Of a DNA stretch of 41,192 bases, positions 1 through 40,653 are shown one piece after another. Positions within the stretch are counted from its first letter, which is position 1. Each line of letters begins with the position of its first letter. The notes beneath the pieces were generated by a model that was not told the DNA's origin, ran no database searches, and was given only the letters and a program-made list of their open reading frames with translations. The stretch comes from Natrinema amylolyticum (GTDB lineage Archaea > Halobacteriota > Halobacteria > Halobacteriales > Natrialbaceae), in assembly GCF_020515625.1 (NCBI RefSeq), contig NZ_JAIWPJ010000010.1:1-41192 (forward strand). Direction: 5' to 3'. The position numbers and the translations under genes are program-made.

Positions 1-696
1 GGTCGTGTTTAGTTTGTAGCATTGTGCCAGACGGCGAAGGCTTGGAGCCACGATTCAGCTGTTGACGGTTGTGCGTGACTGAAACAGTTTGAGAACGAAG
101 AAGTACGTCGTTTTATCTCACGGAAGATACGTTCAGCAGCGTTCCGATTTCCATGTTTTTCGTATCGAAATCGAAGCCCAGATCGACGGAGTGCAGTCTG
201 GAGATGTTTTGCTCCATCGACGAGAAACACGGCATCATCGATATCATGTTTCTCAGTGAGTTCCTGCAGGAACCGTTCTGTCAACGCGGTCGTAGTCGTT
301 GAATATAGCCTCATATGGAGAATTTTGTTCGTTTCCGGATCGACAGCAGTGTACAGCCAATACCGATGTTCGTTGAGTTGAATCACTGTCTCGTCGAGCG
401 CGACGTGATTCGGCTTCTCGTCATCCGCTAGCTGTAGATTGCACTTGTGGACCCAATCGTGGACTGCCTTGCGACTGCGTTCGACACCGAACTTCTCTAA
501 TTCTCGAACGGTATTCGAAAGCGAGAGACCAGCAAGATGGAGTCGAATACCGAGTTCCATTAGCTGGCGCGGTGTCCGCTCTCGCTCCACAAAACTCAAA
601 TCGATCCAGTCGCTACACCCACTGAGGCGGCGGATTTTTGGCATGGACACCACAAAATCGTGCCGCCTCACTTTTCACGCTTAACGAAACAGCGCC
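1..696 (-). mobile_element. IS6-family insertion sequence (ISH14-like)
   Basis: A short element carrying one transposase gene on the minus strand. Bases 1-14 and the reverse complement of 683-696 match at 10 of 14 positions, including the shared TGTTT and GTT blocks, and are read as imperfect terminal inverted repeats. Size and single-gene layout fit IS6-family elements of haloarchaea. The left flank is outside the window, so the expected 8-bp target duplication cannot be checked. It may have helped assemble the worn region that follows. Confidence 0.8.
9..644 (-). CDS. IS6-family DDE transposase
   Basis: A 211-residue DDE transposase that would move its element by replicative transposition. 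The N-terminal half has the helix-turn-helix region of the family (SLSNTVRELEKFGVERSRKAV). The catalytic core follows: the first Asp in HVALDETVI, the second in VFLVDGAKHL, and the Glu in NAAERIFREIKRR. The C-terminal LQAFAVWHNATN is the usual end of the haloarchaeal members. A longer reading from a GTG at 671 exists, but the ATG at 644 gives the typical MPKI.RL.G start and is preferred. No frameshift is seen, so it looks intact. Confidence 0.9.
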   Translation of the reverse strand: MPKIRRLSGCSDWIDLSFVERERTPRQLMELGIRLHLAGLSLSNTVRELEKFGVERSRKAVHDWVHKCNLQLADDEKPNHVALDETVIQLNEHRYWLYTAVDPETNKILHMRLYSTTTTALTERFLQELTEKHDIDDAVFLVDGAKHLQTALRRSGLRFRYEKHGNRNAAERIFREIKRRTSSFSNCFSHAQPSTAESWLQAFAVWHNATN

Positions 697-23551: not shown

Positions 23552-23730
23552 TCAATTCAGCATCGTGGAACAGCCCCATAGGCTGTACTCGGTATTTACA
23601 GGAAACGAGACAAGAACGTTACTCGTGACGAGATTCCGGACCGGCCTCCAGCGTACGTTCATTTTCATCACACGGAGAACGATCGGGTCGCACGCCCGGT
23701 TCGCCGGTTCTACAGATAAGCAAGGCGAGT

Positions 23731-23753
23731 GCCTCGGGGCTTGACCCCGAGGC
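23731..23753. repeat. GC-rich hairpin, remnant of an IS1341/IS605-type element
   Basis: A perfect 9-bp stem, GCCTCGGGG/CCCCGAGGC, with loop CTTGA, followed by GGTTCACGAG. The CCTCGGGGTC core is also found in the structured segment at 28817. Haloarchaeal TnpB-type elements have such hairpins near their ends. The region 23552-23906 has no gene and reads as element debris; the hairpin could also terminate the upstream operon. Confidence 0.4.
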
Positions 23754-23906
23754 GGTTCACGAGAGCCCATACGAGGAGTGCGAAACGGCATACGCTTTCG
23801 TTGTAAGCGGCCGTCTTGTTGTGGAGATAATGGATCTCGCCACCTCAGCGATCAGTACGACTGCGAACTGCCTGCTGAGGTACCTACCAGTTCCAGACTA
23901 GCTCTG

Positions 23907-27774: not shown

Positions 27775-28782
27775 ATGACAAAGGCAGAAGACGTGTTGTT
27801 GTTTGGCGCGCTCGCATTCGTCTGGGGAACAGCCTTCACCGCGATCGAAATCGGGCTAGAAACCATTCCTCCACTCCTCTTCGCAGCGGCCCGATTAGAT
27901 ATCGCTGCGTTCATCTTCGTGGGAGCGGTCCTACTCAGCCGGATTCAATGGCTTCCCCGCACTAAAGCAGACATCGCTCTCATCCTCTCGAACGGAATTC
28001 TCGTCATCGGAGCGCACTTTGCGTTCTCCTTCATCGGCCAGAGCTACGTCACAAGTGGAGTCGCTGCGATCGTCCTCAGTTTCACACCGATCATCACACC
28101 CGTCATCGCTATCCGAATCCTCCCAGCAGAACGCATCTACAGCACAGACGTCCTCGGTCTCTGTACCGGGCTTGTCGGTGTGGTCGCTATCGCAACTGCT
28201 GGTGGGTCCTTTGATGGACAACTCCTCGGTGTTGGACTTCTCTTGGCATCCGCAATCGTCTTCGCGCTTGGCTCCGTACTGACGGAACGCTGGACAGCGA
28301 TTCTCCCAGCACTGTCCCTCCACGCGTGGTCGATGATTACTGGCGCGGTATTCCTCCATGTCACTGCCTACACCTATTCAGGTGCATCGTTCCGGACCGT
28401 GACGTGGACGCCGTCAGCAGCAGCCGCCCTCACGTACCTCGGCATCTTCGCAACAGCAGGCGGGTTCCTCCTCTACTTCACCTTGCTGAATCGAATCGGT
28501 GCAACGAACGTCAGCCTCATCAACTACGCATCACCCGTTGTAGCGACGATCTTCGGTGCAACCCTCCTCGGTGAGCAAATCACCATAGCGACCATCGCCG
28601 GATTTGCGCTCATCGTTGTCGGATTCGTGCTTTGCAATATCCGGCCGCTCTGGCGGCTTACCCGGTCCATCAGGAACGTGGGCGTCAGTGATCAGGTGCT
28701 TGAACGCGATGAAGTCCGCATCCAAGGTAACGTCTACACTACAAAGACCGATTCACAGAACTACCTGCAGCCAAGTGATTAA
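27775..28782 (+). CDS. EamA/DMT-superfamily transporter
   Basis: A 335-residue protein with ten hydrophobic segments in two EamA repeats. The first begins VLLFGALAFVWGTAFTAIEIGLETIPPLLFAAARLDIAAFIFVG and includes VTSGVAAIVLSFTPIITPVIAI. The second begins LLGVGLLLASAIVFALGSVLTERW and ends GATNVSLINYASPVVATIFGATLLGEQITIATIAGFALIVVGFVL. These are the W.S.F.....P..FA..R and P......E.....G..LI signatures of drug/metabolite transporters. The export or uptake substrate is not predictable. The C-terminal 45 residues are a soluble tail. It lies between two inverted TnpB-element ends and may have been moved or trapped by them. Confidence 0.9.
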   Translation: MTKAEDVLLFGALAFVWGTAFTAIEIGLETIPPLLFAAARLDIAAFIFVGAVLLSRIQWLPRTKADIALILSNGILVIGAHFAFSFIGQSYVTSGVAAIVLSFTPIITPVIAIRILPAERIYSTDVLGLCTGLVGVVAIATAGGSFDGQLLGVGLLLASAIVFALGSVLTERWTAILPALSLHAWSMITGAVFLHVTAYTYSGASFRTVTWTPSAAAALTYLGIFATAGGFLLYFTLLNRIGATNVSLINYASPVVATIFGATLLGEQITIATIAGFALIVVGFVLCNIRPLWRLTRSIRNVGVSDQVLERDEVRIQGNVYTTKTDSQNYLQPSD

Positions 28783-29085
28783 CTGCCCCTCGCTGGTCGT
28801 CGTGCTGATGAATCGCCTCGGGGTCAAGTGGTTCGAGACGCCTTCGGTGTCTCGTCATTACGGAAGACCAACGGTCTTCCGAACGACCCCGGAGCATTTG
28901 CCTTGACCGCCTGTGAATACTATTCTCTGAAAAGACGGGAGATCGATATCGATGAGCAAGCTGTGATCGACGAGTCAATCACCACGCCAGATCCAGATCT
29001 TGGGCAGCTAGACGTCGACGGCTAGACAATGTGGCAGATTGGTTTTGAGGCGGCAAATGTTCTGATAGTGGTGGCTACTACTGGA
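28783..29085. other. Non-coding stretch with a three-way RNA-like structure
   Basis: At 28817-28894 an outer stem (CTCGGGGTC with GACCCCGGAG, one bulged base) encloses two hairpins. One is CGAGAC...GTCTCG (28834-28854); the other is CGGAAGACC-AAC-GGTCTTCCG (28861-28881, a perfect 9-bp stem). I recall similar folds downstream of haloarchaeal tnpB genes, where reRNA/sotRNA is made. From 28895 a short open stretch (TACEYYSLKRREIDIDEQAVIDESITTPDPDLG) ends at 29025 without a recognisable family. Confidence 0.45.
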
Positions 29086-29139
29086 GTGACATCCTCCTCG
29101 CCGTAAATGGCAAGGCTTCCCTCGCATGGGGAATACCAG
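29086..29139 (-). repeat. Right end of a TnpB-type element next to its tnpB fragment
   Basis: GTGACATCCTCCTCGCC starts the end; it directly abuts the tnpB fragment stop at 29140 (minus strand). This pairing fixes the orientation of the motif: GAGGAGGATGTCA is the tnpB-distal right end, and the other copies in the window were oriented by it. Confidence 0.65.
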
Positions 29140-29556
29140 TCAGTCGTCACTGGTAGAGGGTTCCGACTCTTGGAACGCCGTGAGCGTCATCTGCGCTGGT
29201 GCGCTCGTCTCACGGTGAGTCGTGGCGGTGTCACTACCGCTCCCATCTCGTGACGAGTCATTGCGTTCTGCCTTGTCAAGCGGGACGCTCTCTCCCCACG
29301 GGTCAACCCGTCGTGCGATGTTCGCGGAAGCGTTGATATCGGCCTGAAACGTCGATACGTGGCAGTTGCCGTTCGGACACTGGAACTCGGCTTGGGAATC
29401 TCGCCGACCGATACGGTGGCACGAGTGGCACGTCTGACTGGTGTACGCTGGATTCACGTACTCGACAAGGATGGCTTCCTCGGTCGCCTTGTCCTCGATG
29501 CGCCCTTGTAGTCGAGCGAACGCCCACGAGTGAAGGCGGAAGTGAACCCGGATCCA
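29140..29556 (-). pseudogene. C-terminal fragment of TnpB
   Basis: The frame reads from about 29556: WIRVHFRLHSWAFARLQGRIEDKATEEAILVEYVNPAYTSQTCHSC, then the zinc finger (C..C 17 residues before CPNGNC), then TFQADINASANIARRVDPWGESVP. The zinc finger (CHSCHR, CPNGNC) and the RuvC-III Asp are intact, but the N-terminal OB/RuvC-I/II parts are absent, so no nuclease can be made. The tail (ETSAPAQMTLTAFQESEPSTSDD) is the usual end of haloarchaeal copies. The element end follows directly. Confidence 0.85.
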
Positions 29557-29663
29557 CTATTGAGCTATTCGACGCTCTATCTCTGACTTCGGTTTCGATT
29601 CAGTAACTGGAACAAGTCAGATTATCATTCTATATAAATTAGAAAGATTGGGAAAGTCAGTTG

Positions 29664-32684: not shown

Positions 32685-33473
32685 ATGCGATCACTTGATA
32701 ATACTCCGATTGTACAGGACGGGAAGTCAATCATCCTCGCCCACGATCACGGACTAGAACACGGGCCGGCTGCCTTCGCGGATGTCCCTGAGCGGCTTGA
32801 TCCGGAGACGGTCTTCGAAATGGCAACTCACGATGCAGTGACTGGGTTCGCAGTCCAGAAGGGGCTTGCAGAGACGTATTACCCCTCCTACAATGACGAT
32901 GTGAACCTGCTGGCGAAACTCAACGGCACCAGTAGTCTCTGGATGGGCGAACCGTATTCGCCGCAGACGTGCTCGGTGGAGTACGCGCTGGAACTCGGCG
33001 CTGACGCCGTGGGATATACGGTATATCCAGGGACCAATCGCGAGCCGGAGATGTTCGAGGAGTTCCAGAAGATACAGGAATCGGCCCGCGAGCACGATAC
33101 TCCAGTGGCGATGTGGTCGTACCCGCGTGGGCAGGCTGTAAAAGAGCACCGCAAGCCCGAAATAATTTCCTATGCGACTCGGATCGCGCTCGAGCTTGGT
33201 GCGGATATTGCGAAGGTAAAGTACCCGCGAAGCGGCGAAGCAATGGCTAACGCAGTGGACGCAGCAGGTGACGTGAACGTCGTCCTGAGTGGCGGCTCCA
33301 AGACCGACGATAGCGAATTCCTGTCATTGGTTGAGACGGCGATGAACGCTGGCGCTAGTGGTTTAGCGGTCGGTCGTAATGTCTGGCAGCGTGATGATCC
33401 TGAGCAGATCCTCGACGCCCTCGAAGCAATCGTCTTCGAGGGTGCGGCTGCGGACGAGGTACTTGACGGTTGA
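32685..33473 (+). CDS. fba: Archaeal class I fructose-bisphosphate aldolase
   Basis: A 262-residue TIM-barrel aldolase (DhnA/FbaB type). It cleaves fructose 1,6-bisphosphate to DHAP and glyceraldehyde 3-phosphate through a Schiff base. AHDHGLEHGPAAF (19-31) is the phosphate-site start, MWSYPRGQ (143-150) lies in the middle, and Lys177 in DIAKVKYP is the Schiff-base lysine. VVLSGGSKT and GASGLAVGRNVWQ bind the other phosphate. It is the first gene of the fructose module and lies 172 bases upstream of glpR. Use of a class I enzyme here contrasts with Haloferax, where a class II enzyme serves this pathway. ATG at 32685 is clear. Confidence 0.92.
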   Translation: MRSLDNTPIVQDGKSIILAHDHGLEHGPAAFADVPERLDPETVFEMATHDAVTGFAVQKGLAETYYPSYNDDVNLLAKLNGTSSLWMGEPYSPQTCSVEYALELGADAVGYTVYPGTNREPEMFEEFQKIQESAREHDTPVAMWSYPRGQAVKEHRKPEIISYATRIALELGADIAKVKYPRSGEAMANAVDAAGDVNVVLSGGSKTDDSEFLSLVETAMNAGASGLAVGRNVWQRDDPEQILDALEAIVFEGAAADEVLDG

Positions 33474-33645
33474 GACCACGTCAGTGGACGGGATTGGTGA
33501 ACAGCGGGATTGGTCGAAGGATCATGTCGGCCGCGTCATCGCCGAAGCCGTCTCTGACGGCTGTTGGACAGTAGGCAATCAAAAGCGATCACAATCAGAT
33601 AGGAATATGAACGCCACCGTGTTATCCGTTCGTAAGCAAACACCT

Positions 33646-34407
33646 ATGTTACCGGCAATGCGAAAACGCGAGATCGTCGAGCTGGTCTCCGAGCGAGGCG
33701 AGTGTTCCGTCGCCGAACTCGCCGAAGAGATGGACTGTTCGAAGGCGACGATCCGTCGCGATCTCAACGATCTCGAAGAGAGGCAGTTGATCGAGCGATC
33801 TCACGGCGGTGCAGTGCCGGCAACGACCGTTGGGGAGGAACAGACCTACGGCCAGAAGGAGGTACAGAACCTCGACGGCAAGATGGCGATCGCCGAGCGA
33901 GCAGTCGAGGAGATCACTGATAATCAGGTCGTGTTTTTCGACTCGGGATCGACGACAATGCAGGTCGCCAAAAACATCCCGAAGGATCGTTCGTTCCTCG
34001 CCGTCACTAACTCGCCGGTTCTAGCGATGGAGCTGGGCAACCGGAACGACGAAGTGAAACTCACTGGCGGATCGCTCCGTCATGAGACTCGCGCGCTCAC
34101 CGGACCGAGTGCGGAGCGATTCATGGAGCGGACCAACTTCGATCTCCTGTTTCTCGGCACAAACGCGATTGAACCGTCGGAGGGACTGATGACTCCGAAC
34201 GAGGACGAAGCCCGGCTGAAATCGCTCATGATCGAGAACTCGGGACGTATCGTACTCGTCTCCGACGGATCCAAGCTGGGTAAACAAAGTTTCGTGAAAT
34301 TCGCCGACTTCGAAGACTTGGACGCATTTATTACCGATACGACGCTCTCGGACGAGCAGCGTGAACCGTTGAAAACCGCCAACGTGGATCTCATTGAGGG
34401 AACTTAA
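33646..34407 (+). CDS. glpR: DeoR-family transcriptional regulator GlpR
   Basis: A 253-residue DeoR-family repressor. MLPAMRKREIVELVSERGECSVAELAEEMDCSKATIRRDLNDLEERQLIERSHGGAV is the winged HTH. The C-terminal DeoR sugar-binding domain (QVVFFDSGSTTMQVAKNIP, LFLGTNAIEPSEGLMTPNEDEARLKSLMIENSGRIVLVSDGSKLGKQSFVKFADFEDLDAFITD) senses a phosphorylated sugar, by analogy fructose 1-phosphate. In Haloferax GlpR represses pfkB and related genes; the same is inferred here because pfkB follows after two bases. The frame is open upstream (to 33379), but MLPAM at 33646 is the family's usual start. Confidence 0.92.
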   Translation: MLPAMRKREIVELVSERGECSVAELAEEMDCSKATIRRDLNDLEERQLIERSHGGAVPATTVGEEQTYGQKEVQNLDGKMAIAERAVEEITDNQVVFFDSGSTTMQVAKNIPKDRSFLAVTNSPVLAMELGNRNDEVKLTGGSLRHETRALTGPSAERFMERTNFDLLFLGTNAIEPSEGLMTPNEDEARLKSLMIENSGRIVLVSDGSKLGKQSFVKFADFEDLDAFITDTTLSDEQREPLKTANVDLIEGT

Positions 34408-34409
34408 CA

Positions 34410-35318
34410 GTGATTTTGACAGTCACGCTCAACCCTGCAGTCGATCACACGCTCAAGGTTGAGGATCTCCCCGAACCCTCTGCGGTCGCACGGACCGATA
34501 GCGCGCGCGTCGACCCCGGCGGAAAGGGGATCAACGTCTCGAAGTATCTCGTTGAACTCGATACGGAAACGGTCGCGACCGGTGTCGTCGGTGACTTCTT
34601 GGGCCAATTCGTTCGCGACAGCTTGGTCGACGAGGGGATCACCGGCGACTTTGTCGAGATCGAAGGTCGGACGCGACTCAACACCACGATTCTGACCGAC
34701 GATGCCGAGTACAAGATCAACCACAATGGACCGACGGTCGACACGAGCGCGATCGACGATCTCCTCGAGATTATCGAGCGCTACGACCCCGATACAGTCG
34801 TCGTCGGTGGTAGTCTCCCGCCGGGTCTCGGTCCCGAGGCCATCGACCAGATCGCCCGAGCGGGCGACTGGCAAACCGTCGTTGACGTTGGCGGAGATGT
34901 ACTCAACGATTTAGACGCGTCCTACGCGCTCTGCAAACCCAACCGCGAAGAGCTCGCCACAGCGACGGGACAGTCGGTCAGTTCGCTAGAGGAGTGTCAG
35001 AAAGCGATCGAACAGCTCCGCCAGAGTGGCTACGATCGGGTTATTGCATCGTTGGGCGCCGACGGTGCCATCATGGCGACGCCGGACGAGTGCCTGCATG
35101 CGGCAGCGCTGGATGCCGATATCGTCGACACGGTCGGTGCCGGCGACTCGATGCTTGCGGGCATTCTCTCTGCACGTAATCGGGGCGCGACGGACGAGGA
35201 GGCACTCCGGACGGGCGTGGCCGTCGCATCGCGTGTCGTCTCCGTACCGGGTACAGATGTCCCACCGCTCGACAACGTGGCAGAAGCGATCGATCGCGTG
35301 TCCGTATCGACCCGATAA
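34410..35318 (+). CDS. pfkB: 1-phosphofructokinase
   Basis: A 302-residue PfkB-family kinase converting fructose 1-phosphate to fructose 1,6-bisphosphate with ATP. Start GTG at 34410 (MILTVTLNPAVDHTL). VDPGGKGINVSKYL (about residues 34-47) and DTVGAGDSMLAGILSA (catalytic GAGD, near residue 245) are the two PfkB signatures; SLPPG in the middle belongs to the 1-PFK subgroup. It starts two bases after glpR ends, so the two are cotranscribed and share a promoter. The product feeds the class I aldolase. Confidence 0.92.
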   Translation: MILTVTLNPAVDHTLKVEDLPEPSAVARTDSARVDPGGKGINVSKYLVELDTETVATGVVGDFLGQFVRDSLVDEGITGDFVEIEGRTRLNTTILTDDAEYKINHNGPTVDTSAIDDLLEIIERYDPDTVVVGGSLPPGLGPEAIDQIARAGDWQTVVDVGGDVLNDLDASYALCKPNREELATATGQSVSSLEECQKAIEQLRQSGYDRVIASLGADGAIMATPDECLHAAALDADIVDTVGAGDSMLAGILSARNRGATDEEALRTGVAVASRVVSVPGTDVPPLDNVAEAIDRVSVSTR

Positions 35319-35430
35319 GTCACATCTCCTTTCCGGGTGTTTGGTTGTGATCGTTCTCTCGATTACCCGCCCCTAGTTTTCACAACTGATGTGTATTTTG
35401 TCCATTCTATGAACGGCGGTTTTAGTGGCA

Positions 35431-35460
35431 ATCGACGGTCGATAGTGCTTAAATACGCAG
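35431..35460 (+). promoter_or_regulatory. Candidate ptfC promoter with upstream palindrome
   Basis: CTTAAATAC (35448-35456) is a TATA-like box 81 bases before the ptfC ATG. Just upstream, ATCGAC-G-GTCGAT (35431-35443) is a perfect 6-1-6 palindrome, overlapping the place where BRE and activators act. It may bind a sugar regulator such as GlpR. A separate ptfC promoter is plausible because 218 bases lie between pfkB and ptfC. Confidence 0.45.
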
Positions 35461-35536
35461 ATACCCTCTGAACGCGCAGGAATTAATTCGATAATATTCG
35501 GTCAGAAACAATCGGATTCGAAAATTCTTTTGAACA

Positions 35537-36736
35537 ATGGGTGGGATTCCTATCCGAAGTATGGCAAGGCAAGACAGAGCAGAACGCGCGCTTCGGTCCC
35601 ACGTCACCTCCGTCAAAGAGGACGTGATGACTGGCGTGTCGTTCATGATTCCGTTCGTCACCATCGGGGGTATCTTCTTAGCGGTGGCGTTCATGGTCGC
35701 CGAGCTGCCGTTCACCGCTGGTACCACCGAGACGGTTTTCGAAGAAACCGGATCGCTCGCGTGGTACATGGCCGAGATCGGCGTCCTCGGTCTGACGATC
35801 ATGATCCCTATCCTGGGGGCGTACATCGCCTACGCCATCGCAGATAGGCCCGGACTCGCGCCGGGGTTCATCCTCTCGTGGGCGATTCAGCAAGAGAACA
35901 TCATCGAAGCCGCCGGTGAGATCGTCGGCTTCCAGGCCGACGGTGCCGTCGCCGGCTTCCTCGGCGCACTGGTGGCCGGTCTCCTCGCCGGCTATGTCGC
36001 CCGCTGGATGAAAGGGTGGACAGTCCCATCCTTCATCGAGCCGATGATGCCGGTGCTGATCATCCCTGTGGTTACGACAGCACTGCTGGCCCCGCTCGTG
36101 ATCGTTGGACTGGGAGTTCCGATTGCGATCGCCGACGACGCGTTGACGACGTTCCTCGAGAACATGGAGGGCGCAAATGCCCTCCTGCTTGGCGCGATCC
36201 TCGGCGCGATGATGGCGTTCGACATGGGTGGCCCAGTCAATAAGGTCGCCTACGTCTTCGCCGTCGCGCTCGTGGGAGATCAGATCTATGGGCCGATGGC
36301 AGCGGTGATGATCGCCGGTATGACCCCGCCGCTCGGGCTGGCACTTTCGAATTTCATCGCACCCCAGAAGTACTCGGCCGAGATGTACGAAAACGCGAAG
36401 GCAGCAGTGCCACTGGGCCTGTCGTTCATCACTGAAGGTGCGATCCCCTATGCAGCGGCCGACCCGCTAAGGGTAATTCCCAGCATCATGATCGGCAGCG
36501 CGACCGCTGCCGCCACCGCGATGTGGATCGGTGTTACCATGCCGGCGCCCCACGGAGGTATCTTCGTGTTCCTGCTGTCGAACAGCCCGCTGGCCTTCCT
36601 CGGTTGTATCGTACTCGGAACGGGCGTGACCGCAGCAGTTGCAACGGTCATCAAGCCCGACTTCGAGAAGACGGTCGCCGATGTCGACACCGAAGCAGGG
36701 ACGAGTGCCCAGGCAGCAACACAAACCGACGACTGA
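35537..36736 (+). CDS. ptfC: PTS fructose transporter subunit IIC
   Basis: A 399-residue membrane channel (EIIC-Fru) that brings fructose in while EIIB phosphorylates it. About nine to ten hydrophobic segments: VSFMIPFVTIGGIFLAVAFMV, LAWYMAEIGVLGLTIMIPILGAYIAYAIADRPGLAPGFI, GFLGALVAGLLAGYVARWMKGW, and VLIIPVVTTALLAPLVIVGLGVPIAIADDALT. MMAFDMGGPVNKVAYVFA and LSFITEGAIPYAAADPLRVIPSIM (ITEGAIP) are the substrate-site motifs of the fructose family. Unlike most bacterial systems the IIA and IIB domains are separate genes. ATG at 35537 or 35561 (MARQDRA) could start. Confidence 0.93.
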   Translation: MGGIPIRSMARQDRAERALRSHVTSVKEDVMTGVSFMIPFVTIGGIFLAVAFMVAELPFTAGTTETVFEETGSLAWYMAEIGVLGLTIMIPILGAYIAYAIADRPGLAPGFILSWAIQQENIIEAAGEIVGFQADGAVAGFLGALVAGLLAGYVARWMKGWTVPSFIEPMMPVLIIPVVTTALLAPLVIVGLGVPIAIADDALTTFLENMEGANALLLGAILGAMMAFDMGGPVNKVAYVFAVALVGDQIYGPMAAVMIAGMTPPLGLALSNFIAPQKYSAEMYENAKAAVPLGLSFITEGAIPYAAADPLRVIPSIMIGSATAAATAMWIGVTMPAPHGGIFVFLLSNSPLAFLGCIVLGTGVTAAVATVIKPDFEKTVADVDTEAGTSAQAATQTDD

Positions 36737-36791
36737 GACATCGCAAGCTAACTTCCCCGTAACTATTAAGCCCACAGATCATACGTTTATC

Positions 36792-37268
36792 ATGGCAGAT
36801 ACACTCTCACAAGACCGAATCGATACGCTCGCCCCGACCGAACACATCACGCTCGACCCGCCGCCCGCCGACAAGCAGGCTTGCATCGAGTACCTGCTAG
36901 ACCTACTCGTCGATGCAGGGCGGGTTGAGAATCGGGAGGCTGCCTTAGAGGCACTACTCGCTCGTGAGGAGGAAACGACGACCGGCGTCGGTATGGGAAT
37001 CGGGATTCCTCACGCCCAAACGGACGCCGTCACGCAACCGTCGGTGGCGTTCACTCGTTCGGACGAGGGCGTCGACTTCGGGGCGATGGACGACGAGCCC
37101 GCACAGCTAATCTTCATGATACTCGTCCCCGAATCAGGGGCGGACGATCACCTCGCCATCCTGAGCACTCTCTCGCGGGCACTCATGCACGACGAGGTCC
37201 GCGAGGATCTCTACGACGCGGAAACGCCCGAGGAGGTACAAGACGTTCTGAAGGAGGCGGTAGCATGA
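36792..37268 (+). CDS. ptfA: PTS fructose subunit IIA
   Basis: A 158-residue EIIA-Fru that takes phosphate from HPr on His74 (GMGIGIPHAQTD) and passes it to EIIB. The family features CIEYLLDLLVDAGRVENREAALEALLAREE and FMILVPESGADDHLAILSTLSRALMHDEVREDL are all present. Start ATG at 36792; the frame is open further upstream, but the extension overlaps the end of ptfC. It ends over the start of ptsH (ATGA, four bases). In Haloferax I recall this gene last in the operon; here it comes directly after ptfC. Confidence 0.92.
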   Translation: MADTLSQDRIDTLAPTEHITLDPPPADKQACIEYLLDLLVDAGRVENREAALEALLAREEETTTGVGMGIGIPHAQTDAVTQPSVAFTRSDEGVDFGAMDDEPAQLIFMILVPESGADDHLAILSTLSRALMHDEVREDLYDAETPEEVQDVLKEAVA

Positions 37269-37555
37269 GTACCGAACGCACCGTCACGGTCGTCCCCGAG
37301 GCCGGCCTCCACGCCCGTCCGGCCGCCAAGTTCGTCGAGGCGGTTAACGATCATCAATCGGACGTGGAGATCGGTCGCGTCGACGAGGACGATCTCACCC
37401 CTGCAGGTAGCATGATCGCCGTTACGAGCCTCGGCGTTGAGAGCGGCGAGGATATCCGAATCGTTGTAGACGGTCCCGACGAAGAGGCAACGTTGGACGC
37501 TCTCGAACGGGTTCTGACAACCCCTGAGGACGAACTCGCCGACGCAAACACCTAA
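37265..37555 (+). CDS. ptsH: PTS phosphocarrier protein HPr
   Basis: A 96-residue phosphocarrier. PEAGLHARPAAKFVEAV carries the phospho-accepting His16 and its Arg. PAGSMIAVTSLGVESGEDI includes a Ser at the position that HPr kinase modifies in Gram-positives, but no HPr kinase is seen in the window. It overlaps ptfA by four bases and precedes ptsI by 12. Acidic throughout, as expected for halophile cytosol. Confidence 0.93.
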   Translation: MSTERTVTVVPEAGLHARPAAKFVEAVNDHQSDVEIGRVDEDDLTPAGSMIAVTSLGVESGEDIRIVVDGPDEEATLDALERVLTTPEDELADANT

Positions 37556-37567
37556 ACACCTGATCAG

Positions 37568-39262
37568 ATGTCCCGACGAACTCTCACCGGCACCGGCGCC
37601 ACACCCCGCTCGAACATCGGGACGGTCGTCTGGTACAGTCCGGACGTCGACCTTCCTGACCCCGACAACGTAGATGTCGACCCGGCGACCGAGCGCGATC
37701 GCTTCGAAGACGCTCGCGAGGCCGCCCGCTCGGAGTTAGAGTCCGAACGCGAGCGGACCGCCGAGCGCGTCGGGGAACAGGAGGCCGAAATATTCGACGC
37801 TCACCTGCAGTTCCTCGACGATCCCCAGATCGAAGACGGCGTCGAGAGCGCGATCGAGGACGGTCTTCCCGCCGAATACGCCGTCCAGCAGGCGTTCGCC
37901 GATCCGATCGAGCAATTCGAGGGCATGGAGGGACGGATGGCCGAGCGAGCGGACGACCTTCGCGACGTCCGCGACCGTCTGATTCGACTGATCGCCGGCG
38001 GCGAGCGAGTCGACCTCGGCGACCTTCCTGAGGGGGCAGTGGTCCTCGCCGAGCGGCTCACGCCGAGTGACACTGCCCAACTCGACCCCGATCGCGTCGC
38101 GGGATTTGCCACCGTCACCGGCGGACGCACGTCGCACGCTGCGATCTTCGCTCGGTCGCTGGCGCTCCCAGCCGTGGTCGGTGTCGGTGACGAACTACAC
38201 GACATCGACGAGGGTGCGACCGTCGTCGTCGACGGCGAAAACGGAGAAATTGCCGTCGACCCCACCGATGAACGCCGTGAGGCAGCGTCGGCTACCCACG
38301 AGGTGGAGATTCGAGAGGAGCCGGTAGCAACCGCCGATGGTACTGAGATCGAGATCGCCGCGAACGTCGGTCAACCCGTCGAACTCGAGGGTGCCAAGGC
38401 GCAGGGGGCCGACGGTATCGGTCTCTATCGTACGGAGTTTCTGTTCCTCGATCGCGAGGCACCGCCGGACGAGGACGAGCAGTACGAGACGTACGTAGAG
38501 GCGCTCGATATGTTCCCGGACGGTCGCATCGTCGTTCGGACGCTCGACGTCGGCGGCGATAAGCCGATCCCCTACCTCGACCTGCCCGATGAGGAGAATC
38601 CGTTCTTGGGCGAGCGGGGAATCCGCCGATCGCTCGGTCCGGACACGGACCTCTTCGAGGCGCAGCTCCGTGCGTTGCTCCGGGCCGCCGCCGACAGTGA
38701 CGGTCGGCTGTCCGTCATGTTCCCGCTCGTCGCAACGGTCGAGGAACTCGACGCCGCGCTCGAAACCGTCGATGCGGTCGCGGCTGCCCTCGACGAGGAG
38801 GGCATCGACTACGCCGTTCCCGAGCTCGGCGTGATGATCGAGACGCCCGCTGCCGTGTTCGCTGCTCCGGAACTCGCCGAGCGGGTGGATTTCTTCAGTG
38901 TGGGCACCAACGACCTCACTCAGTATATTATGGCCGCAGCGCGCGAAAATGAAAATGTTGCCGACATCAGGGACCCATGCCAGCCCAGCGTGTTACGGGC
39001 CGTCGCACAGGCCGTCGAGGCAGCCCACGAGAACGACACGTGGATCGGTATGTGCGGAGAGATGGCTGGCGATCCCGAGCTGACCGAGCTGCTCGTCGGC
39101 CTGGGGCTCGACGAACTGAGTATGAGCGCAGTCACCGTGCCAGAGGTGAAAGCGACCGTCGAGTCGGTCGACACCGACGAGGCGGCCGAGCAGGCCACTC
39201 GAGCGCTCGAAGCGGCCACCAGAGACCAGGTACTCGAACGAATTCAGAACAACGACTCATAG
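37568..39262 (+). CDS. ptsI: PTS enzyme I (phosphoenolpyruvate-protein phosphotransferase)
   Basis: A 564-residue enzyme I. It autophosphorylates with PEP and phosphorylates HPr. The N-terminal domain (about 1-220) has the active His190 in VTGGRTSHAAIFARSLALPAVVG. The C-terminal PEP-binding barrel contains GADGIGLYRTEFLFLDR, VVRTLDVGGDKPIPYL and LGERGIRRSL. It ends with FSVGTNDLTQYIMAAARENENV and WIGMCGEMAGDPELTELLVGLGLDELSM, where the Cys is the conserved proton donor. Complete in length. It is the generic component of the relay and would also serve other PTS systems in the cell. Confidence 0.95.
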   Translation: MSRRTLTGTGATPRSNIGTVVWYSPDVDLPDPDNVDVDPATERDRFEDAREAARSELESERERTAERVGEQEAEIFDAHLQFLDDPQIEDGVESAIEDGLPAEYAVQQAFADPIEQFEGMEGRMAERADDLRDVRDRLIRLIAGGERVDLGDLPEGAVVLAERLTPSDTAQLDPDRVAGFATVTGGRTSHAAIFARSLALPAVVGVGDELHDIDEGATVVVDGENGEIAVDPTDERREAASATHEVEIREEPVATADGTEIEIAANVGQPVELEGAKAQGADGIGLYRTEFLFLDREAPPDEDEQYETYVEALDMFPDGRIVVRTLDVGGDKPIPYLDLPDEENPFLGERGIRRSLGPDTDLFEAQLRALLRAAADSDGRLSVMFPLVATVEELDAALETVDAVAAALDEEGIDYAVPELGVMIETPAAVFAAPELAERVDFFSVGTNDLTQYIMAAARENENVADIRDPCQPSVLRAVAQAVEAAHENDTWIGMCGEMAGDPELTELLVGLGLDELSMSAVTVPEVKATVESVDTDEAAEQATRALEAATRDQVLERIQNNDS

Positions 39263-39266
39263 AACA

Positions 39267-39740
39267 ATGAAACTCGTTGCAGTCACGTCATGTCCGACCG
39301 GTATCGCACACAGCCAGATGGCAGCAGAGAACCTCGAGACGACAGCCGAAGAACGAGGCCACGACATCAAGGTCGAGGTCCAAGGCGCGATGGGTGCCGA
39401 GAACGAATTAACGGACAACGAGATCGCGGCCGCTGACGCCGTTATCATCGCCGCAGATACATCGGTCAGCCGCGATCGCTTCGAGGACAAGCCGCTCGTT
39501 AAAGGAACTGTGAAAGACGCTGTCAATGACCCGGAAGGGCTTATCGATCGAGCAGTGCAACGCGCCGAAGCCGGCGAAACCGGCGTCGTCGAGATCGGCG
39601 GCACTGACACCGAAACCGAGACTGCGGACGCAAAGGAAGCCGAGGCTACTACGGACTCGGGAAACGAAGAGCCGACTGAGCAGCTCGGCGGAGATCCATC
39701 GAAGGGCCTCTTCGCCCGTTTGAAGAGGTTGCTATCATGA
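39267..39740 (+). CDS. ptfB: PTS fructose subunit IIB with acidic linker and basic tail
   Basis: A 157-residue EIIB-Fru. MKLVAVTSCPTGIAHSQMAAENLE holds the phospho-Cys9; VQGAMGAENELTDNEIAAADAVIIAADTSVSRDRFEDKPL completes the fold (to about residue 95). Then comes an acidic linker (GTDTETETADAKEAEATTDSGNEEPTEQ) and a basic, hydrophobic end, KGLFARLKRLLS. In bacteria IIB is fused to IIC through linkers; this tail could hold the free IIB at the membrane or IIC. It starts four bases after ptsI. Confidence 0.93.
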   Translation: MKLVAVTSCPTGIAHSQMAAENLETTAEERGHDIKVEVQGAMGAENELTDNEIAAADAVIIAADTSVSRDRFEDKPLVKGTVKDAVNDPEGLIDRAVQRAEAGETGVVEIGGTDTETETADAKEAEATTDSGNEEPTEQLGGDPSKGLFARLKRLLS

Positions 39741-39798
39741 CACAGGTGGACCGATTCAGGACGAAAACTGGAGCCGAATCGGAGAGCGGGTGGGATCG

Positions 39799-40653
39799 AT
39801 GACCGACGTACGTCCCATCTTAGACGCCCTCGTAGAGGTGACGCCAACCGTCCGCGAGGAGCTGCGAACGGCCTCCAGGGAGGGAGAGACCGAAACGGAG
39901 AACCCCAGCGGCGACGCCCAATCGGCCGCCGACGTAGTGATTGATCGTCGGTTTCATGACCGACTGACCTCACTCGACGCTGTCGGTGCGTTCGCCAGCG
40001 AGGAGCGTGAAACCGTCGAAGACGTCGGCGAAGGGTTCAGTGTTGCTATCGACCCGCTCGACGGGTCGTCGAATCTACGATCGAACAACATCGTCGGAAC
40101 GGTAGTTGGAGTATACGATGCCTCGCTCCCGGCTAGCGGCCGCGACCTGATCGCCAGCGCCTTCCTCCTGTACGGACCGCTGACAACGATGACAGCCGCC
40201 GTAGACGGCGAAGTAACTCGATACACGATCGATGGCGGTGAAATAGTCGACACCACCCCTGTGGTCTTTCCCGACGAGGACGGAATTTGCGGATTCGCAG
40301 GGGCGACAAGCGAGTGGCCGAACCTCATAAGGGAGTTCTGGGGAAACCTGAACTACGAGTATAAACTCCGGTACACTGGCGCGATGGTCGGCGATATCGA
40401 CCACCTTCTCGTCGAGGGTGGACTACTCGGATATCCCGAGCGGGAGTCCAGTCCGAACGGTAATCTTCGGCTCCAATACGAGGCGAATCCGATGGCACAC
40501 CTCGTCGAGACCGCCGGCGGCCGCTCCACGACTGGCTTAGGGTCGTCCCTCGACGTCGACCCTGAGGAACTCCATCAGCACGTCCCCGCCTATTTCGGAA
40601 GCACTGACCTAATCGGTAGGCTCGAGGACGTCATAGAACAGACACCTGAATAG
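39799..40653 (+). CDS. fbp: Fructose-1,6-bisphosphatase (class I type)
   Basis: A 284-residue phosphatase of the FBPase/inositol-monophosphatase superfamily, FBPase branch. Glu69 (ASEERE) and AIDPLDGSSN (84-92) bind the metals. YEANPMAHLVETAGGRSTTG binds the sugar phosphate, and LRYTGAMVGDIDHLL lies in the core. It hydrolyses fructose 1,6-bisphosphate to fructose 6-phosphate. In a fructose operon it would route part of the carbon to hexose phosphates for glycosylation or pentose synthesis, an inference. ATG at 39799 (MTDVRP) is preferred to GTG at 39790. It lies 58 bases after ptfB and 12 before the next gene. Confidence 0.9.
   Translation: MTDVRPILDALVEVTPTVREELRTASREGETETENPSGDAQSAADVVIDRRFHDRLTSLDAVGAFASEERETVEDVGEGFSVAIDPLDGSSNLRSNNIVGTVVGVYDASLPASGRDLIASAFLLYGPLTTMTAAVDGEVTRYTIDGGEIVDTTPVVFPDEDGICGFAGATSEWPNLIREFWGNLNYEYKLRYTGAMVGDIDHLLVEGGLLGYPERESSPNGNLRLQYEANPMAHLVETAGGRSTTGLGSSLDVDPEELHQHVPAYFGSTDLIGRLEDVIEQTPE

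Follow-up and report, generated by a model that had tools for sequence, protein, structure and literature searches.

What is the compact palindromic structure at 28817-28894 of the window, by which we mean the whole stretch of 41,192 nucleotides analysed here, which is contig C10 in a haloarchaeal genome of 4.7 Mb? A first-pass annotation had described a three-way junction, in which an outer stem of nine pairs encloses a 6-bp hairpin and a perfect 9-bp hairpin, had argued that such regularity implies selection on an RNA, perhaps a TnpB guide-RNA scaffold that was kept or left behind when tnpB was lost, and had proposed to look for covariation among homologues and for the same fold near tnpB genes. 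The fold is present as described, and it is real and beyond chance. On the plus strand its minimum free energy (MFE) is -43.2 kcal/mol (z -5.29), matched by none of 200 dinucleotide shuffles; the minus strand reaches -39.0 (z -4.64), again equalled by 0 of 200 shuffles, and the junction folds on both strands because the structure is palindromic. The outer stem has 8 pairs in the plus-strand MFE structure, or 9 with one bulged G. The inner hairpin at 28834-28854 has 9 pairs, the outer 6 of them plain Watson-Crick, with 5 further pairs added beyond a bulge in the MFE structure, and the second inner hairpin, at 28861-28881, is a perfect 9-bp helix.

Relatives of the junction are dispersed among haloarchaea. 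DNA searches with 28783-29040 as query found them in 70 of 100 genomes, our own included. The matches listed from other genomes all end by 28919 (query position 137), and the flank is therefore not conserved. A genome collection held 44 stretches with the inner part of the junction followed by TTGA, all labelled as a haloarchaeon, as "halophilic" or as "uncultured archaeon". Plasmid records gave 31 matches, and the 25 listed are all haloarchaeal and include Natrinema, Natronomonas pharaonis and Haloferax mediterranei; no gene lay under the match among the genes listed in the incomplete gene tables of four plasmid records that we opened, and a gene did so at three other plasmid matches listed. 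Neither phage records nor viral contigs, the latter searched with the exact pattern of the inner repeat, contained a match.

Covariation was assessed on an alignment drawn from 40 places, reduced to 29 full cores by removal of 11 partial or duplicate-strand entries and to 27 by removal of L012 and L019. RNAalifold, run on these 27 homologues with no structure supplied, recovered the same three-way junction, with both sides altered in at least one sequence for 9 of 26 pairs. When a named structure of 29 pairs was scored, 97.2% of cells were paired (89.6 in shuffles), 58 cells carried double changes (15.8 +/- 3.4 in shuffles) and the covariation score was 0.232 (0.096 in shuffles), none of these values being reached in 500 shuffles. 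Pairs with double changes numbered 9 against 6.3 (5 of 500 shuffles as high), and further pair types showed no excess (19 against 19.4; 381 of 500 as high). Sliding the partners by 1-3 columns, as a control, left 30-48% of cells paired and 1 to 12 double-change cells. The covariation that had been looked for is present in the 27 homologues and is confined to the inner pair of hairpins; the near-invariant outer stem carries no double change. It supports the hairpins and does not distinguish RNA from DNA. Because DNA palindromes evolve likewise, such covariation is no proof of an RNA.

The genes beside the relatives are more informative. Among 76 distinct copies (77 rows minus one duplicate), 17 have same-strand tnpB homology that ends at most ~160 nt upstream of the junction; tnpB was detected with nine TnpB proteins of the own genome, and these counts are lower bounds. 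The suggestion that the same fold would be met near tnpB genes is thus borne out, on the same strand and 3' of the gene, the position that guide (omega or re) RNAs occupy. In the tnpB-linked relatives the outer stem stands just 3' of tnpB, the end reads RRTTCAC and homologues diverge beyond it. Nine loci have tnpB frames of more than 200 codons: the stop codon falls 10-19 nt before the stem in seven (L011, L016, L094, L097, L099, L107 and L116), 133 nt before it in L091 and 38 nt inside it in L117. Five of these long frames (L016, L011, L117, L097, L091) have the Pfam TNB domain, and the three relatives given to the NCBIfam model of RNA-guided TnpB (L016, L117, L097) all passed its cut-off. 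At three further loci (L009 at 73, L106 and L123) tnpB homology starts 190-575 nt downstream, which places the junction at the left end. For the copy in L119 at 3223, tnpB is on the opposite strand and ends ~33 nt beyond the junction; this copy has an outer stem of a different type, and both strands match the model. The first-pass annotation had missed the strand; the placement of tnpB in the relatives makes the minus strand the relevant and probably the working one. Judged from sequence, an IS200/IS605 element (tnpB, IS1341-type) supplies the outer stem, which is its right-end hairpin. L016, L117 and L097 share a near-identical end hairpin despite a TnpB identity of 25-27% (L016 and L117, 25% over 205 aligned positions; L016 and L097, 27% over 338). 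Such a near-shared end under diverged TnpBs points equally to a site recognised by one common TnpA and to a part of the guide RNA, and it suggests that the DNA end, seen by that TnpA, is under selection more than the binding of TnpB. The Y1_Tnp domain, scored as presence per genome, occurs in 21 of 29 genomes of the genus.

Read on the minus strand, the locus divides into the following features, to which we add two from elsewhere in the window.

28808..28917, minus: complete gene-less PATE-like element, 110 bp including the 5-nt left target and the right TTCAT (basis: 34 two-ended copies)
28913..28917, minus: left boundary; TTCAC, the presumed target pentanucleotide, which reads TCTAC in 29 of the 34 copies
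28896..28912, minus: left-end segment AGGCGGTCAAGGCAAAT, which resembles tnpB-element left ends such as AGGCGGTACGAGGCGGATG (L011, L016)
28887..28895, minus: 5' strand GCTCCGGGG of outer stem P1, the right-end hairpin of the element (from the alignment and the search for uninterrupted hairpins)
28829..28886, minus: inserted two-hairpin repeat, 58 bp, TCGTTCG...CGAACCA, with inverted ends
28861..28881, minus: hairpin P2, a perfect 9-bp helix in the inserted repeat (folding and covariation)
28834..28854, minus: hairpin P3 of the inserted repeat (folding and covariation)
28815..28828, minus: loop motif CTTGA, which is retained, and CTTGACCCCGAGGC, the 3' strand of P1
28808..28812, minus: right-end motif TTCAT (TTCAC in most relatives)
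28788..28807, minus: predicted guide position, should the locus be expressed as a guide RNA for TnpB (homologues diverge here, beyond the RRTTCAC end)
23709..23760, plus: uninterrupted 52-bp sister element, with TCTAC, left end, hairpin at 23731-23753 and GGTTCAC
29140..29557, minus: C-terminal tnpB remnant, apparently of another element, below the NCBIfam cut-off

The junction combines an outer end hairpin with a repeat inserted into it, and the two differ in origin. When the inner repeat is excised, a plain hairpin GCCTCGGGG-CTTGA-CCCCGAGGC is predicted. Its pattern occurs uninterrupted in 48 of 100 genomes (0 for the reversed-pattern control), and the window itself holds one, at 23731-23753 in the 52-bp element TCTAC...GGTTCAC. 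The inner repeat, for its part, was found without the outer stem at all 21 loci opened for that purpose (L031 and 20 fetched loci, the latter chosen from matches of the junction model limited to its inner part). Its ends are sharp and constant across loci (GTCGTTCG...CGTGATGACG...CGAACCAC) and its flanks are varied; it is almost its own reverse complement (GTGGTTCG...CGTCATCACG...CGAACGAC), has imperfect 8-bp inverted ends (GTSGTTCG/CGAACSAC) and mostly measures 56-64 bp. The exact consensus is present in 59 of 100 genomes, and its reversed control in none. As for the suggested TnpB guide-RNA scaffold, what stands is the kind of element, a TnpB-type (IS200/IS605) element without its tnpB; the whole fold as one scaffold does not, since the outer stem alone is the end hairpin of the element and the inner hairpins are an independent, dispersed repeat.

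Filled and uninterrupted states both occur in every class that we defined, that is in three tnpB-linked classes and in the gene-less one. The 34 uninterrupted copies comprise 9 with a gene-less left end, 7, 6 and 3 of the three tnpB types and 9 unclassified; the 76 filled copies comprise 40 that begin with a left end (gene-less copies pooled with the left ends of tnpB elements), 10, 7 and 2 of the three tnpB types and 17 unclassified. As the two sets come from different searches, the ratio of 76 to 34 is meaningless. That different tnpB lineages share the same loop insertion could mean that whole ends were exchanged, and not that the repeat inserted several times.

Within the outer hairpin the inner repeat keeps one orientation: under a strict pattern, 67 distinct contexts are forward, none is reverse and 2 are symmetric. 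A comparison of the empty site (GGGG-CTTGA) with the filled one (GGGG-[insert]-CTTGA) reveals no target duplication. About 40 of 94 copies from our earlier searches, not counting 7 misfiled and 2 false ones, lie outside end palindromes, and copies without the outer stem speak against a repeat that never moves on its own. The flanks of copies outside the hairpin gave no pairing signal (mean duplex energy -9.2 against -9.9 when shuffled; n=49, the 7 misfiled and 2 false matches included), and hairpin loops are therefore not the sole site of the repeat; for hairpin copies (-16.0 against -15.8) the comparison is uninformative, their flanks being alike. Larger loop inserts, with two extra hairpins between P2 and P3, occur in L030 (1411-1548) and L002 (1413-1554); the L030 element measures 161 bp, a length that would correspond to a four-hairpin insert of ~109 bp. 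Separately, L129, L131, L133, L140, L193, L194 and others combine the inner repeat with a third hairpin between stems like AACCTTTTGC...GCAAAAGGTT, resulting in four-way junctions, several of them soon after a stop codon. In L119 (3210-3312) a copy of the inner repeat directly follows the 3' end of a different type of tnpB, in the opposite orientation on the tnpB strand; the ends of other tnpB elements are thus also entered by the repeat.

The boundaries of the outer element were drawn from 34 two-ended gene-less copies, 25 filled and 9 uninterrupted. Filled elements measure 106-112 bp (23 of 25) and uninterrupted ones 52-53 bp (8 of 9), leaving no room for a gene. TCTAC begins 29 of the 34 and TTCAC ends 30, figures that express a preference within the only end patterns allowed, T[TC]NAC and TT[CGT]A[CT]. 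The left ends of tnpB elements can carry a similar hairpin, as in TTCACAGGCGGTACGAGGCGGATGCCCCGATC-CTTGA-GGTCGGGG of L011. Joined flanks of ten of 13 chosen gene-less copies were also sought in 29 genomes of the genus, our own included. For the 53-bp sister copy near G000:C4:58305, two relatives hold a contiguous pre-insertion site, in which 48 bp are absent and no duplication is seen; no such site was found for the other nine, both copies in the window included, a weak absence with 12 candidates scored per genome.

We consider it very likely that the junction consists of two nested mobile DNA repeats, a gene-less element of IS605 type (PATE) and a ~58-bp repeat in the loop of its right-end hairpin; for this arrangement we infer the order of events, the mover of each layer and the RNA function as follows. 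The first layer would be a 52-bp terminal-only PATE of an IS200/IS605, IS1341-type element, made of a target pentanucleotide, a ~17-bp left end, the hairpin with its CTTGA loop and RRTTCAC. It may have arisen by deletion between the similar left- and right-end palindromes, an origin proposed for terminal-only elements of Haloquadratum (PMC3119063). In L009 a tnpB element (frame 221-1486, 421 aa) has three-way junctions at both ends (73-157 and 1497-1584), and deletion between the two repeats would yield exactly the gene-less unit. The element would then have inserted beside a TCTAC-like site without duplication, as seen for the one sister copy. The second layer, a two-hairpin repeat with inverted ends, would have entered the loop just 5' of CTTGA, in an orientation that is constant where it can be told, and left the stem intact, to become the outer helix of the three-way junction. 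Where an element has retained tnpB, this stem is the final helix ahead of the predicted guide, and it would most likely serve both as right-end hairpin in the guide RNA of TnpB and as a DNA hairpin for a TnpA-type transposase. The tnpB-bearing relatives probably make guide RNAs in which the junction replaces the hairpin, because the right-end hairpin is part of the guide RNA in Halobacterium (PMC12558985). The window copy is most likely a decaying non-autonomous element, because its end reads TTCAT and its outer stem, compared with relatives, has one mismatch and one G-U pair, a slight decay; guide activity in trans would be possible for it.

A bolder version, which we think unlikely, extends these nested repeats into a strategy: an archaeal REPIN-like repeat would colonise the tips of TnpB guide and transposon-end hairpins as a passenger of the guide RNA, and the 110-bp units would act as guides in trans that recruit TnpBs from elsewhere in the genome and prevent their own loss. 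If so, the hairpin tip would be among the few sites where an insertion spares recognition by both TnpB and TnpA.

Quite unlikely, in our judgement, is that the locus is a functional TnpB guide-RNA scaffold (omega RNA or reRNA) kept by selection and working in trans with a TnpB encoded elsewhere. The minus-strand position, the RRTTCAC-like end and the variable sequence beyond it are as in tnpB-linked copies; the own genome has 16 places with a TnpB domain, 12 of them with open frames of at least 360 aa, and gene-less sister elements are common. Against this, the window copy has the mutated end and the mismatched outer stem, and only ~17 bp separate its left boundary from the stem. A guide-RNA scaffold would be expected to span ~100 nt or more. 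In the own genome, moreover, C4:201868 is the sole junction match with a listed tnpB just upstream, and that gene is decayed (54-aa frame), and the uninterrupted hairpins at C4:58305 and C4:176912 have no listed tnpB within 1 kb.

We regard as very improbable a plus-strand terminator or free-standing structured RNA that has no relation to a transposon. The plus strand does fold slightly better (-43.2 against -39.0), and the junction lies just 3' of a gene for an EamA transporter (27775-28782). This reading was dropped because the relatives put tnpB on the minus-strand side; homologues also adjoin unrelated genes, it is the boundaries of a mobile element that are conserved, and in L209 and L210, which both have the transporter gene, homology ends at ~28790, outside the element. 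The window contains no tRNA and no match to an Rfam family at gathering score, and a permissive Rfam search of 28600-29200 and four tnpB-linked relatives revealed nothing above chance level at the junction; its single match with E < 0.01 falls on the tnpB remnant. Least credible of all is that the whole 110-bp unit is a single MITE with the inner hairpins as an original part: filled copies do predominate (76 against 34), in a sample biased by the query, but the inner repeat without the outer stem and the outer hairpin without the inner repeat occur in many genomes.

Two nested repeats have precedents in haloarchaea, likened here by description rather than by sequence. In Haloquadratum, a study of 2011 described PATEs (palindrome-associated transposable elements) of H. 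walsbyi, among them 52-bp forms of HqIRS46 and ISHwa23 that retain only the termini, together with ~110-bp SMR-A repeats (HqIRS42, HqIRS43 and HqIRS55) that insert within PATE palindromes (PMC3119063). Like those PATEs, the outer layer is too short to code, has a near-terminal palindrome related to IS605/tnpB elements and a conserved terminal oligonucleotide target without duplication (here for one sister copy), and the uninterrupted sister in the window is exactly 52 bp long; the host differs, and the hairpin here holds an inserted repeat. The inner layer resembles SMR-A in being short, in its inverted ends, in causing no target duplication and in lying within near-terminal palindromes of PATE/IS605 elements, but it usually measures ~56-62 bp, and the ~110 bp of SMR-A is approached only by the four-hairpin insert of L030 (~109 bp). 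The rule described for Haloquadratum, a repeat that enters the palindrome of a PATE, would by analogy fit a shorter repeat in other haloarchaea.

The inner repeat also recalls the REP, BIME and REPIN sequences (PMC3733652, PMC6006769), being an inverted pair of hairpins with short conserved outer tags, dispersed and in high copy number. Its two tags read GTCG and GTGG, one per side, rather than GTAG, and phyla named in those two papers are bacterial, one of the papers also mentioning archaea. With TnpB guide RNAs (omega RNA or reRNA, and the sotRNAs of Halobacterium salinarum, whose guide RNA includes the right-end hairpin; PMC12558985) the locus shares the right-end hairpin, which in relatives stands on the 3' side of tnpB and on its strand, but the window copy has no tnpB and lacks most of the scaffold. 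A search of that paper for the term "three-way" returned nothing. The literature that we searched, mostly titles and the openings of abstracts, with subscription papers outside it, gave nothing on an end hairpin turned three-way junction or on a ~58-bp repeat of this kind. PATEs that carry guide RNAs have reportedly been published in bacteria.

The striking RNA-like fold is thus explained as two nested mobile repeats, and the locus shows, at the level of sequence, how a small repeat can sit in the hairpin that ends TnpB elements. The site of insertion is probably also part of the guide RNA of a Cas12 ancestor, so that tolerance of the passenger can be tested against silencing by it. More generally, covariation and stable folds in haloarchaeal intergenic regions can stem from mobile palindromes and not from RNA genes, which calls for caution in their annotation.

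The tnpB remnant at 29140-29557 (minus) was considered as the partner of the junction and rejected: the left boundary of the element, at 28917, stands between them, and the remnant apparently has a different 3' end of its own at ~29073-29191, marked by a sub-threshold HgcC-like match (minus strand). Matches to HgcC (RF00062) in the own genome are all sub-threshold, and 7 of the 13 directly follow the 3' end of a same-strand tnpB. Across 13 genomes of the genus, at least 20 of 57 are just 3' of tnpB (at least 19 tnpB places), and none is 5' of a listed tnpB. HgcC is an archaeal RNA family described as of unknown function (PMC5496347), and in Thermococcus kodakarensis 3 of 5 HgcC transcripts seen were placed within transposase genes (PMC4247193). 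The position of these matches suggests that HgcC may be a TnpB guide RNA.

Elsewhere in the window, the open frame at 9-671 (minus) resembles an ISH/IS6-type transposase. Those at 32685-40653, from their translations read by eye, resemble a fructose phosphotransferase cluster, with an aldolase, a DeoR/GlpR-like regulator, a sugar kinase, membrane and soluble PTS components and a fructose bisphosphatase.
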